From Fibrobacter sp. UWB11 (GTDB lineage Bacteria; Fibrobacterota; Fibrobacteria; Fibrobacterales; Fibrobacteraceae), in contig NZ_FSRT01000001.1 in NCBI RefSeq assembly GCF_900143015.1, positions 1,364,001-1,428,000 of the forward strand: a stretch of DNA of 64,000 nt, given 5' to 3'. Position 1 is the stretch's first letter, and each line of letters begins with the position of its first letter. The notes under the pieces were generated by a model. It was not told the origin of the DNA, did no database searches, and was given only the letters and a program-made list of their open reading frames with translations. This document shows positions 22,538 through 58,442 of this stretch, piece by piece. Made by a program: the position numbers and the translations under genes.

Positions 22538-22568
22538 AGATTGCCGCGCTGCGCTCGCAATGACGACT
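22538..22568. repeat. Dispersed-palindrome remnant ending in AATGACGAC
   Basis: AGATTGCCGCGCTGCGCTCG followed by CAATGACGAC has the same plan (GAT, palindrome, ATGAC) as the repeat families annotated below. It lies in the gap between the tRNA unit and the convergent gene at 22606. Confidence 0.4.
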
Positions 22569-33454: not shown

Positions 33455-34486
33455 ATGCTTGAAATTTTTAAAATCGTTTTAGAAGACGTAGCGAATTATG
33501 GGCTGAATATTTTTGCCCCATGTGTTCTAGCCTTAATTCTCACCCTGCTATATAAAAAGAACAAGCACAAAAAAATTTGCAAAATATTATTGTGGGTAAT
33601 CCCCTTAATCATCATTTGCAAGTTGCGATTTCTTTCCTCTTATACATACGCATACACGATTGCGATTTTCCTTATTTTCGCGATTCTGTATGCGGCAACG
33701 ATTGCTATTGGGAAACGTTTTGCAGAAAATAAAATCGTTCTTTGCTTATCGGTCCCCTTTATTTTAGCTTGTTCCTATCTGTTCCTTGCGGTTTTTGAAT
33801 ACATTGATTCGAGGGAAACATTCGGAAGCGTTGAAGATCGACCCTTACCAGACCATACAAAAAGTAATCACGACTACACCATCAGAATCAATTACGCAGA
33901 TGCTTGGGGTAACAACAATTACACAATGACCATACGTGGAAAAAATGCTACAGACGTCCAAGCAGATTCCATTATCTTTTGCAAGCAGGTTAGGCTCTGT
34001 GCCGGTGCAAAATTTACTACAAAGGATTCCGCAAGCCGTGATACACAAAAGGTCTTACCGACTGAAAGAATTCGTTGCCAGTGGGAATTGTTCCCTAACG
34101 ACAAAAAAGCAAATCTTTTTAAATTCAAAGAACTTGCTGAAAATTATACAAAAGAATACAAAATTGGCTTTGTCTTGGATGGCTATACATTTAGCGTAGA
34201 CATGATTGACTACAACAAAAAAACAGTTCGTAATTTGAGCCTCGATAACGCTACAAATTACGAAGACCAAGTTCCTAAAGCCAAGGAAATTGTCAATCTC
34301 GGTTTGAATTTGATTGATTTCAATGATTCTATAAAAGTAGATAAGAAATGTAATGAACATCTACCACAAATGTCTACATCATTTGGTGTGGATTCAACAT
34401 CATTAAACACAAATGATACAGGAACGGCGTTGATAAAACTAGACGAAATAAAGAAGCCCAAACGTCGTAAGCCCACTAAAAAATGA
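33455..34486 (+). CDS. Membrane protein of unknown function
   Basis: 343 residues with about four N-terminal TM helices (about 15-33, 43-60, 62-86 and 96-112), then a soluble domain (about 115-343) beginning with a linker (DSRETFGSVEDRPLPDHTKSN) and having beta-rich sequence such as YTIRINYADAWGNNNYTMTIRG. AAAGGAG precedes the ATG. Its stop overlaps the tilS start as ATGA, so the two genes are translationally coupled despite no obvious functional link. Confidence 0.7.
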   Translation: MLEIFKIVLEDVANYGLNIFAPCVLALILTLLYKKNKHKKICKILLWVIPLIIICKLRFLSSYTYAYTIAIFLIFAILYAATIAIGKRFAENKIVLCLSVPFILACSYLFLAVFEYIDSRETFGSVEDRPLPDHTKSNHDYTIRINYADAWGNNNYTMTIRGKNATDVQADSIIFCKQVRLCAGAKFTTKDSASRDTQKVLPTERIRCQWELFPNDKKANLFKFKELAENYTKEYKIGFVLDGYTFSVDMIDYNKKTVRNLSLDNATNYEDQVPKAKEIVNLGLNLIDFNDSIKVDKKCNEHLPQMSTSFGVDSTSLNTNDTGTALIKLDEIKKPKRRKPTKK

Positions 34487-35868
34487 CTTTAATTTGTCGT
34501 CACAGTTTTAAACGTCTGTTGCTTGCAGTTTCGGGCGGCTTAGATTCTATTTGCTTAGCGCATTATTTTATCAAGAATCGCGAGACTTTCGGAATCGAAT
34601 GGCTTGGGATTGCGCATGTGCATCACGGGTTACGCGAAGGGACCGCAGACAGGGACGCAAAATTTGTGGAAGAGTTTGCGAAATCGTACGACGTTCCTTT
34701 TTTCTTGAGAAAACTAGATGGCGAAGCGCTGAAAAGTGCCGATGGATCGCTCGAAGAAAATGCACGAGATGCAAGATATAAAGCGCTATTCGAGATTGTG
34801 GAAAGCATTGTCACTCTGGAGCCAACAGGCGATAGAGTCCACAAAAAAAACGTTATGGATCCTATCGCCTCTGCGAGGCTCCAGGATGACGAAGGAAGAT
34901 GCCCGCATCTTTCAGCTACGCTCAACACAAGTTCTGGCGGGCATGACAGTCTCCATAGCTCATACCCCAAAGCAGCCGAAAACTGCGGCCCCATATTCCA
35001 TAGCTCTATTGCAATCGTGACGGCGCATCATGCAGGGGATCAGGCGGAAACCATGTTCATGCGACTCAAGCGCGGAACAACGCTTGCCGGGCTCCGCGGG
35101 ATTCAAGAAGTCCGCATTCTAGACGAAGCCTCCCCCACCCAAGAAGACAAGAGTGAAGAAGGGAGATTCCCGCTCGGAGGCGGGAATGACAACGAAAAAG
35201 AAGGTTGCAACCTCATACCCCATACCCCATATCTCTACCGTCCATTCTTAAATGTCACGCGCAGCGAATTACTCGCCTACGCTCGTGAGCACGATCTCGA
35301 TTGGTGCGAAGACGAAAGCAATACCGACGTGAAGTTCGCACGTAACAAGATTAGGCACGAGTTTTTGCCGAATTTGGAAAGCGAATGTCCGGGGGCAATA
35401 AAACAGCTTTGCAGAATTGCCGGGATTGCAGACAGGGCGTATGCGAAAGTGATAGGGAAATGCGACGAGGCGTTTGCACCGTGTTTATTAGACGAGAAGG
35501 AGATGCCCGGTCAAGCCGGGCATGACACGTGGCGATCCCGGAACAGAGTCCGGGATGACAATGCAATACGTACGATTGCGCTGGACAAGAAAAAGCTCAA
35601 CAAGGTTCTGCGCGCACATGCCGATGCAGACCTTTCTGAATTATTCCGGTTGTGGCTTTCAGAGAAGGGTTTCCGCTTCCCAACAGGCTTTTTCTACGGC
35701 CCCAAGGAACCCGCCCATGTAAAAATTCCGATTCGTACCGTATATCGCAAGCGATCTATCGTCAAAATACGCAATACTGTCTGGATTTGCGATTTCAAAG
35801 ACGCGCTATCCGCTGCAAAATTTGTATCTTGCGAGATGAAAGAAAAGGATTATAATGAACCAACCTAA
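34483..35868 (+). CDS. tilS: tRNA(Ile)-lysidine synthase with three in-frame repeat-derived insertions
   Basis: 461 residues. Catalyses lysidine formation at C34 of tRNA-Ile(CAU), an essential decoding step. The PP-loop motif [17 protein letters not shown] is at about 12-28, HVHHGLR at about 46, [13 protein letters not shown] at about 90, [17 protein letters not shown] at about 173, and [17 protein letters not shown] at about 265-285. Between conserved blocks are three Arg/Gly/Asp-rich segments with no counterpart in typical TilS (about 106-160, 222-246 and 338-362); their DNA is made of palindromic repeats of the same families found between genes here (see repeat entries). The frame stays open throughout, so the gene is probably functional. 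Overlaps the preceding gene by 4 bp and ftsH by 14 bp. Confidence 0.92.
34816..34890. repeat. Dispersed palindrome inside tilS (family 2, AGGATGAC end)
   Basis: CTGGAGCC and AGGCGATAG pair with CTATCGCCT and GGCTCCAG across an A-rich loop; a GGATCC lies before the right arm and AGGATGAC closes it, as in the intergenic copies at 47308 and 52655. In the tilS frame it encodes part of the first extra segment. Confidence 0.7.
34899..34948. repeat. Dispersed palindrome inside tilS (family 1-like)
   Basis: ATGCCCGC (34899-34906) pairs with GCGGGCAT (34937-34944), followed by GACA, but with a 30-nt loop instead of the usual 6 nt. Lies directly after the family-2 element in the first tilS insertion. 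Confidence 0.6.
35161..35194. repeat. Dispersed palindrome inside tilS (family 1, complete)
   Basis: GGGAGATTCCCGC-TCGGAG-GCGGGAATGACAACG: 8-bp stem, 6-nt loop. Nearly identical to the intergenic copies at 41481 and 50521. Encodes the second extra TilS segment. Confidence 0.8.
35499..35528. repeat. Dispersed palindrome inside tilS (family 1 variant, TCAAG loop)
   Basis: GGAGATGCCCGG-TCAAG-CCGGGCATGACA: 8-bp stem. Together with the next element it encodes the third extra TilS segment. Confidence 0.7.
35533..35560. repeat. Dispersed palindrome inside tilS (ATCCCGGA stem)
   Basis: ATCCCGGA (35535-35542) pairs with TCCGGGAT (35549-35556) and is followed by GACAA, 5 bp after the preceding element. 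Confidence 0.65.
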
Positions 35869-41480: not shown

Positions 41481-41516
41481 AAGGAGGTCCCCGCTCAGAG
41501 GCGGGGATGACAACTT
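41481..41516. repeat. Dispersed palindrome (family 1), intergenic
   Basis: AAGGAGGTCCCCGC-TCAGAG-GCGGGGATGACAACTT: 8-bp stem with 6-nt loop, between convergent genes. Same plan as copies at 35161, 50521 and 58409. Confidence 0.8.
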
Positions 41517-50520: not shown

Positions 50521-50553
50521 GGAGATTCCCGCTCAGAGGCGGGAATGACAACT
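50521..50553. repeat. Dispersed palindrome (family 1), intergenic
   Basis: GGAGATTCCCGC-TCAGAG-GCGGGAATGACAACTGA: 8-bp stem and 6-nt loop, 12 bp after the cvfB-like gene. Differs from the tilS copy at 35161 by only about two positions in the core. Confidence 0.8.
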
Positions 50554-52654: not shown

Positions 52655-52683
52655 GGATCCTTCGCTGACGCTCAGGATGACGA
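52655..52683. repeat. Dispersed palindrome (family 2), intergenic
   Basis: GGATCCTTCGCTGACGCTC followed by AGGATGACG; the same GGATCC ... AGGATGAC frame as the tilS and 47308 copies, with a shorter arm. Confidence 0.65.
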
Positions 52684-57665: not shown

Positions 57666-58400
57666 ATGAATTGGATAGACATTACTTGCAGCGCTTGTCT
57701 GCTTGTTTTCGGTGCCCTCGGGTTATGGCGTGGTCTACTCGGCAGCGTGTTCAGATTTTGCGCATGGGTCTCTGCGATTTTTGGAGCATACTTTGCACAA
57801 AGTCTTTTCGGTGATTTTTTCGCAAGGAACTTCGCCTTTGGCGACTTTGCATCTCACCTTATTTGCACTTGCATCGGCTTTTTGGTTCCGTTCCTGCTGT
57901 TTACGTTTATCGGGCATTTAGTCGGAGATTCTATCAAGAACACGATTGTCGGCAAAACAAACCGCATTCTTGGCCTCTTGTTCGGACTCATCAAGGCCGT
58001 CATTGCCTGCTTTATCTTGCTCACAATTTTGCATTTGCTCCCCGTCGAAGGTAATCTCAAGAAATTGAGAAACGATGCAATTTCGTACAGCGTCTACAAG
58101 TCTTCGCTCGAAACAATGGGATTTTCTTCTGACGAAGTAAACCTCCGCAAGATGGCAAAAGAAAAAGCAAGCGAACTTACCAAGACGATTACAGACAAAG
58201 CAAAAGGCTCGACAGAAGAGACCGCAGATTCGCTCAAAAGCGCCGCTAAAAATGCTGCGGATAGCGTAGCAACCAAAGTCTCAGAAACAGCCGAAAAAGC
58301 CAAGGATGCCGCTATTGCCGCTAAGGACGCAGCAATAAAGACCTTCGAAGAAGGCAAGTCAAGCAATTCCGCTTCGTCTTCAAGCTCTGCTAAAAAGTAG
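57666..58400 (+). CDS. cvpA: CvpA-family membrane protein with LEA-like helical tail
   Basis: 244 residues. Four TM helices in the CvpA pattern (about 5-24, 28-50, 65-85 and 100-125; starting MNWIDITCSACLLVFGALGLWRGL cut here), then a cytosolic tail (about 150-235) of amphipathic repeats SAAKNAADSVATKV, AEKAKDAAIAAKDAAIKT, resembling LEA or apolipoprotein-like helices, ending in Ser runs. CvpA proteins are linked to membrane homeostasis and colicin V export. The tail is unusual for the family. Confidence 0.82.
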   Translation: MNWIDITCSACLLVFGALGLWRGLLGSVFRFCAWVSAIFGAYFAQSLFGDFFARNFAFGDFASHLICTCIGFLVPFLLFTFIGHLVGDSIKNTIVGKTNRILGLLFGLIKAVIACFILLTILHLLPVEGNLKKLRNDAISYSVYKSSLETMGFSSDEVNLRKMAKEKASELTKTITDKAKGSTEETADSLKSAAKNAADSVATKVSETAEKAKDAAIAAKDAAIKTFEEGKSSNSASSSSSAKK

Positions 58401-58408
58401 CCGAAAAA

Positions 58409-58442
58409 GGGAGATGCCCGCACGGTGGCGGGCATGACAATT
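58409..58442. repeat. Dispersed palindrome (family 1), intergenic
   Basis: GGGAGATGCCCGC-ACGGTG-GCGGGCATGACAATTG: 8-bp stem and 6-nt loop, 8 bp after the CvpA-like gene and before the convergent SecA-like gene. Confidence 0.78.

Follow-up and report, generated by a model that had tools for sequence, protein, structure and literature searches.

TGTC-tagged, REP-like hairpins dispersed through Fibrobacter genomes and carried in frame by tilS

The window analysed here is a stretch of 64,000 nucleotides (C1 1364001-1428000) from a Fibrobacter genome of 3.76 Mb in nine contigs; a search with its tilS gene returned 45 loci from Fibrobacter or Fibrobacterales, at identities of 68-90%. An earlier note on this DNA placed a hairpin at 58409-58442, and one is indeed found at 58410-58439, shortly past the stop codon that closes a Colicin V production-like gene (57666-58400) and ahead of a convergent SecA-like gene. 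The features of the window that matter below are as follows.

22539..22564 (+), third hairpin type, GATTGC..GCAATGAC, intergenic, with convergent genes on either side
34483..35868 (+), tilS, encoding tRNA(Ile)-lysidine synthase, an open frame with five hairpins in three insertion zones
34857..34890 (+), in-frame family-2 hairpin of tilS zone 1, GGATCC..AGGATGAC
34894..34948 (+), second in-frame hairpin of tilS zone 1; its stem of 8 bp, ATGCCCGC/GCGGGCAT, starts inside the A of 34899 and encloses a loop of 32 nt
35162..35191 (+), in-frame family-1 hairpin of tilS zone 2, translated as FPLGGGND
35499..35527 (+), in-frame family-1-type hairpin of tilS zone 3 with the arm GCCCGG, translated as EMPGQAGHD
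35531..35560 (+), in-frame family-1-type hairpin of tilS zone 3 with the arm CCCGGA
41483..41512 (+), family-1 hairpin with a GGAGGT head variant, intergenic, 3' of a terminator-like hairpin
50521..50550 (+), family-1 hairpin in the gap where a CvfB-like and an OmpA-like gene converge
52655..52681 (+), family-2 hairpin GGATCCTTCGCTGACGCTCAGGATGAC, intergenic
58410..58439 (+), family-1 hairpin, the reported copy, GGAGAT-GCCCGC-ACGGTG-GCGGGC-ATGACA

The earlier note had described two families of hairpins scattered over intergenic and coding sites, and both the families and their placement are borne out, since copies lie between genes as well as in frame within tilS. Apart from the reported copy, family 1 occurs at 35162, 41483 (the GGAGGT variant) and 50521; with up to three mismatches, its core pattern gives 10 matches in the window against 1.04 expected, including four exact copies and the same four sites on the opposite strand. 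Family 2 is present at 34857 and 52655, with 0 copies expected. The accumulation of five in-frame copies in a single gene, tilS, does not figure in the earlier note.

The two families were said to share an ATGAC end. They do, and they share more than that, namely the whole order GAT-stem-loop-stem'-ATGAC with the AT paired. Families 1 and 2 are members of one structural superfamily, whose consensus plan is AAAAGG(A/C)GAT-[6-nt arm]-[4-6 nt loop]-[arm']-ATGACAA, with an 8-bp stem closed by AT. The plan was examined in an unbiased sample of 464 kb (the window and twenty 20-kb stretches) by counting the pattern G-AT-stem-loop-stem'-AT followed by any trinucleotide. The GAC tail gave 29 matches against a mean of 1.9 for each of the other 63 trinucleotides, the head base G gave 29 against 3 for each other base, and the stem measured 8 bp in nearly all copies; the AT closing pairs were required by the search, so that AT itself is no independent result. 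A looser palindrome scan, with the GAC tail and no head requirement, was too noisy. Among 116 copies the flank consensus AAAAGG(A/C)GAT...ATGACAA shows a sharp A-rich stretch directly 5' of GG, and the base 3' of GAC is A in 95%, which makes the tag TGTC on the strand that I call the tag strand; on that strand the tail reads C(T/G)CC and is followed by a T-rich flank.

Pairing of the arms was assessed at sites defined by their ends only, i.e. picked by GG.GAT and ATGACA at the correct spacing with pairing ignored. All six inner pairs formed at 99 of the 107 such sites, as opposed to a mean of 12 and a maximum of 21 when arms were shuffled among copies. The perfectly paired copies comprise 21 different 6-nt arms, with loops of 6 nt (62 copies), 5 nt (34) or 4 nt (3). 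An alignment also gave three covarying pairs with changes on both sides, and pairing was lost when it was slid, but its rows had been preselected for pairing and are circular as a measure of percent paired, so the claim rests on the 99/107 test. The stem variants listed in the earlier note (TTCCCGC/GCGGGAA, TGCCCGC/GCGGGCA and TCCCCGC/GCGGGGA) were all recovered, together with CCGGC, CCCGG, CCTGC, CCCGA and others. I read the differences between occupants of orthologous sites, described below, as changes of the whole cassette rather than as stems compensated stepwise in place. One locus (L185:8691-8739) carries a second GC-rich hairpin insert (CCCCGGAACATGTCCGGGGCAAGCTCC) within the element loop, the orthologue in genome G045 (L310) having a plain loop.

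Far from being restricted to a few copies, the element was found 154 times in the genome by a covariance model built from 23 copies. The long and short family-1 patterns have 26 and 35 exact copies, respectively, and the short one, with up to three mismatches, gives 156 genome matches versus 4 with a reversed control, some sites being counted on both strands. For family 2 there are at least 37 good copies, chosen by eye from a looser search. Judging by the positions, the copies are mostly singletons, with few opposed pairs (e.g. C1:1118175-/1118224+). Beyond this genome, the structural model has matches in 79 of 80 Fibrobacter genomes, with recorded counts limited to about 40 per genome, and is sparse elsewhere in the phylum. 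By contrast, the sub-family with CCCGC arms is unevenly spread, at 28-106 matches in each of 13 Fibrobacter genomes and 0-14 in any other, so the plan is genus-wide while the arms are lineage-specific. Wherever comparable sequence was found, the 13 genomes lay near the one studied here, from which I infer, by similarity rather than from a tree, that they form a related set.

Genes were called with a purpose-made codon-pair scorer. Of 145 copies whose sequence context could be used, 128 are intergenic and 17 lie within predicted genes. The intergenic copies occupy unidirectional (77), convergent (34) and divergent (17) gaps, and their median distance to a gene 3' end is 45 bp. Pfam supports the identity of the following hosts: TilS, topoisomerase III, an HrpB-type helicase, an RluB-type pseudouridine synthase, TruB, the NAD-dependent DNA ligase (ligA), a SUMT-HemD fusion, a LysE transporter and two Fib_succ_major proteins; a radical-SAM-like host protein scores under the Pfam cut-off. 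Family-1 copies within genes of this genome are sense in ten cases and antisense in five. Proteins acting on nucleic acids make up 5 of 11 hosts versus 4 of 46 window genes (Fisher p=0.009), in a post hoc count that uses Pfam names as read by the author and leaves out tilS, because tilS had drawn attention to the elements.

TilS is a tRNA-modifying enzyme that is normally essential, and no second tilS copy was found in the genome. Across the genus, 46 tilS loci totalling 57 kb, that of the window included, were scanned, and 23 of them hold elements, 42 in sense and 0 in antisense orientation, some of them tandem or nested. The flanks of these genes (218 kb) gave nine detector matches, several of which are conserved codons of an ftsH-like neighbour; some antisense matches there were discarded as elements on this ground. 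Most TilS frames range from about 340 to 572 residues and share 307 conserved columns, broken by three internal zones, the first two of which map to a four-residue gap and a direct junction in the A. aeolicus enzyme. The core evolves with a dN/dS of 0.10-0.13 relative to the eight nearest relatives, and this purifying selection, together with the gene being the sole copy, indicates that the host remains functional. The topB gene behaves likewise: in 30 species it holds 23 sense and 0 antisense elements, with a single element in 55 kb of flanks. Counts from related species are non-independent events. The orientation in tilS (42:0) and topB (23:0) is stricter than the genome-wide replication bias described below predicts. 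No stop codon closes any of the three antisense frames of a typical element, yet the tilS and topB copies are sense only.

Other sequences share these zones. Those of tilS (34819-34992, 35143-35215 and 35490-35560 in the window; L087-L131) also hold other in-frame repeats (CACACCCCATACCCC, TCTCGTCTCTCGTCTTTCGTCT, ATCATCAATCATC), so that tilS seems to collect repeats of several types. In the tilS genes of L125 and L126, tandem 3' halves (arm'-ATGACA) follow a full element in a manner that resembles replication slippage. The insert zones of topB (L316-L345) contain other short repeats, e.g. GGTTCGGCAGGCTCACCAACC and ACGTCATCCTGA..AAGGATCC.

Comparison of orthologous sites gives a view of how the occupants differ. 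At one topB codon position, this genome and G071, G046 and G018 carry GGCGATGCCGGAACAGAGTCCGGCATGACA or a near copy, G001, G054 and G023 carry GGAGATTCCCGCTCGGAGGCGGGAATGACA between flanks that are near-identical in the two groups, and G005 and G069 have neither hairpin; the difference spans the whole cassette (head, both arms and loop) and not single pairs. In relatives, the CvfB-OmpA gap, site of the 50521 element in the window, holds that element, either of two other hairpin types, or no hairpin, and sites aligned with G045 differ both in presence and in occupant. One aligned orthologous copy in the G045 comparison has an inner pair broken in one of the two genomes, so pairing is not obviously maintained after insertion. 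I read these differences as whole hairpins having probably been copied or swapped and having then undergone ordinary decay, rather than stepwise compensatory mutation in place. The copying of an intact palindrome, which the earlier note had put forward beside selection on structure, is thus the option that gains support, since orthologous occupants differ as whole hairpins.

The orientation of the elements follows replication. Within C1, the sign of the GC skew, taken from sampled stretches, reverses close to 1.3 Mb, and element orientation flips along with it. Sorted by skew, the C1 elements of family 1 divide 61:24 and those of family 2 divide 14:4; with C2 and C3 included, where the sign of the skew comes from one or two stretches each, the figure is 124:48 (p=6e-9), and the same rule applied to a second genome, G045, gives 49:25 (p=0.007). 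TGTCAT-hairpin is preferentially what the G-rich strand reads, and the G-rich strand by skew is the lagging-strand template. Gene direction as the sole determinant of orientation was rejected, because beside unidirectional genes the elements oppose leading-strand genes (27:4) but not lagging-strand genes (6:10; Fisher p=0.0008). At lagging-strand genes and in convergent or divergent gaps, where gene direction cannot produce the bias, only 35 of 56 copies follow the rule (p=0.08); gene direction could add to the bias. IS200/IS605 elements act via single-stranded DNA on the lagging-strand template (PMC6006769), and with this precedent the strand bias suggests, without proving, a single-strand route.

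The earlier note envisaged mobilisation in trans and proposed a search for a REP-associated tyrosine transposase. Y1_Tnp (PF01797), the catalytic domain of IS200/IS605 and RAYT proteins, has 0 matches in this genome but is detected in all five control genomes, E. coli among them, and in a search of 168 genomes of the phylum several that are complete and rich in elements proved to lack a Y1 gene. Y1 proteins do occur in part of the Fibrobacter genomes, but their presence is not associated with copy number (5 of 13 CCCGC-rich versus 22 of 67 other genomes, Fisher p=0.75), an element lies close to only 1 of the 30 Y1 loci retrieved, and a sister genus of the same family has up to seven Y1 matches and no structural-model matches. 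RAYT/Y1 mobilisation was rejected on the absence of the gene and the lack of association with copy number. The transposase search covered the Y1 class, and possibly another trans-acting factor mobilises the elements. In genome G139, nine Y1 matches accompany only six model matches, the reverse of the element-rich genomes. The flanks show no clear direct-repeat diagonal of the kind a target-site duplication would leave.

The explanation that I favour, with moderate confidence, is that these are CGTC(TGTC)-tagged, REP-like, non-autonomous hairpins, copied as cassettes and probably by way of a single-stranded lagging-strand template. The DNA hairpins, of about 32 nt, would be recognised by structure and not by arm sequence, the parts recognised being, on the tag strand, the unpaired TGTC foot, the 8-bp stem closed by AT, the short loop, the C(T/G)CC tail and the T-rich flank. 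An intact hairpin would be copied or swapped as a cassette, so that both arms change together, and this would happen while the DNA is single-stranded, the tag-first strand lying on the lagging-strand template. The sub-family with CCCGC arms would have expanded in one related set of species; most copies would persist between genes, mainly near 3' ends, and some in frame in the tolerant loops of TilS and topoisomerase III. As far as comparison of sequences can tell, the elements would thus be mobile, by a single-stranded route, and the enzyme would be a general or an otherwise unrelated one. A further proposal, put forward tentatively and with rather less than an even chance in its favour, is that these hairpins, with no transposase of their own, spread as cassettes on the single-stranded lagging-strand template, preferentially replace one another at occupied sites and so keep rewriting the same loops of TilS and topoisomerase III across the genus.

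Several other explanations deserve consideration. Spread might involve no dedicated enzyme, with homologous recombination of flanks and conversion of hairpins by replication slippage or template switching. The same-site swap between near-identical topB flanks and the slippage-like half-elements in the tilS genes of L125 and L126 speak for this possibility, but alone it does not account for copies at unrelated sites or for the expansion of a sub-family to 28-106 matches, and I regard it as unlikely though worth keeping in mind. A classical REP/RAYT pair, in which a Y1 (HUH) tyrosine transposase, encoded or recently lost, acts in trans, would explain the tag-and-hairpin anatomy and the lagging-template bias, both of which fit HUH single-strand transposition (PMC6006769), and Y1 proteins are encoded in some Fibrobacter genomes. 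Considering that Y1 is absent here and from many element-rich complete genomes, that model matches are lacking in the same-family genus whose genomes have up to 7 Y1 matches, that copy number shows no association and one element lies near 30 Y1 loci, and that the tag is TGTC and not GTAG, this explanation appears quite improbable.

Functional RNA or DNA signals selected in place, i.e. 3' mRNA stabilisers, attenuators or terminators kept by compensatory mutation, would agree with the position of the copies (gene 3' ends lie a median 45 bp away; 77 unidirectional, 34 convergent and 17 divergent gaps) and with the A-rich upstream flank, which gives a T-rich run on the tag strand. Among close relatives, however, orthologous sites vary in whether a hairpin is there and in its type, what changes is an entire cassette (head, both arms and loop) rather than single pairs, orientation tracks replication more than transcription, some copies lie within coding sequence, and a T-run follows on the ATGAC side in only 4% of copies; in-place selection is therefore improbable. 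Intrinsic terminators in particular were rejected, since an A-run of at least 4 upstream (a run of T, offset from the stem, when read on the tag strand) is present in only about one third of copies. Finally, spread linked to transcription or mRNA, through an RNA copy, reverse transcription or recombination of a cDNA, would accommodate the sense-only elements of tilS (42:0) and topB (23:0). It is hard to reconcile with a genome-wide orientation that mostly opposes leading-strand genes and follows skew, or with antisense copies in other hosts of this genome (10 sense and 5 antisense for family 1), and seems to me very improbable.

If cassette copying of REP-like hairpins is the right reading, tilS would be a normally essential gene for a tRNA-modifying enzyme that has repeatedly gained coding sequence from mobile hairpins. 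Fibrobacter also makes spread testable, by virtue of an expanded sub-family, CCCGC-poor relatives, differing occupants and a replication-strand bias. How CGTC-type REPs spread without a transposase is a question left from 2013.

A literature search with sequence strings returned only chance matches among the matches listed, none of the papers retrieved describes these elements in Fibrobacter, and the main text of the S85 genome paper does not mention repeats of this kind. The earlier note had called the elements REP/MITE-like. They are REP-like dispersed palindromes, of the CGTC/TGTC-tagged superfamily, but not classical GTAG REPs; MITEs were rejected, because the element is a single hairpin of about 32 nt, not a unit bounded by IS-like terminal inverted repeats, and has no clear target-site duplication. 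With GTAG REPs and REPINs mobilised by RAYT they have in common tagged hairpins in many, mostly intergenic copies, while differing in the tag (TGTC and not GTAG) and in the lack of a RAYT or other Y1 gene in this genome. The closest counterparts are the CGTC-tagged REPs of Di Nocera, De Gregorio and Rocco (2013; PMC3733652). According to the sections of that paper that characterise them, these have a CGTC (or TGTC/CCTC) tag, an 8-9 bp stem with complementary AT in positions 1 and 2, loops of 4-5 nt with exceptions in some species, a short, unpaired CCA-like tail and a predominance of head-to-head dimers, and are listed in Proteobacteria, Chlorobi, Bacteroidetes, Spirochaetes and Thermotogae. 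The Fibrobacter elements resemble them in the unpaired TGTC tag at one end, the 8-bp stem closed by AT, the variable arms, the tens to hundreds of copies, the intergenic preference with some intragenic copies, and the lack of a dedicated transposase. The tendency toward hosts acting on nucleic acids, including TruB and DNA ligase, is reported there for other phyla, and DNA ligase, tRNA pseudouridine synthase B and helicases are common to both sets of hosts. Relative to those descriptions, the Fibrobacter elements belong to a phylum outside the list, have loops of 4-6 nt, 6 being commonest, a C(T/G)CC tail with a T-rich flank in place of CCA, and copies that by inspection are mostly single and not head-to-head dimers; the replication-strand bias and the tilS/topB hot spots are not among the features described in those sections. 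RPE-4 and RPE-6 of Rickettsia, filed in the same paper as CGTC-4 and CGTC-1 REPs, likewise lie within protein-coding genes, but in another phylum, with other arms and other host genes, whereas a Fibrobacter tilS may hold up to five elements. Neisseria dRS3, also filed there as CGTC-1, is similarly a short inverted repeat in many copies, mostly in clustered arrays, unlike the dispersed elements of Fibrobacter. On the strength of these comparisons I call the Fibrobacter elements a probable variant of the CGTC-tagged REPs that differs in loop length, tail and single arrangement.
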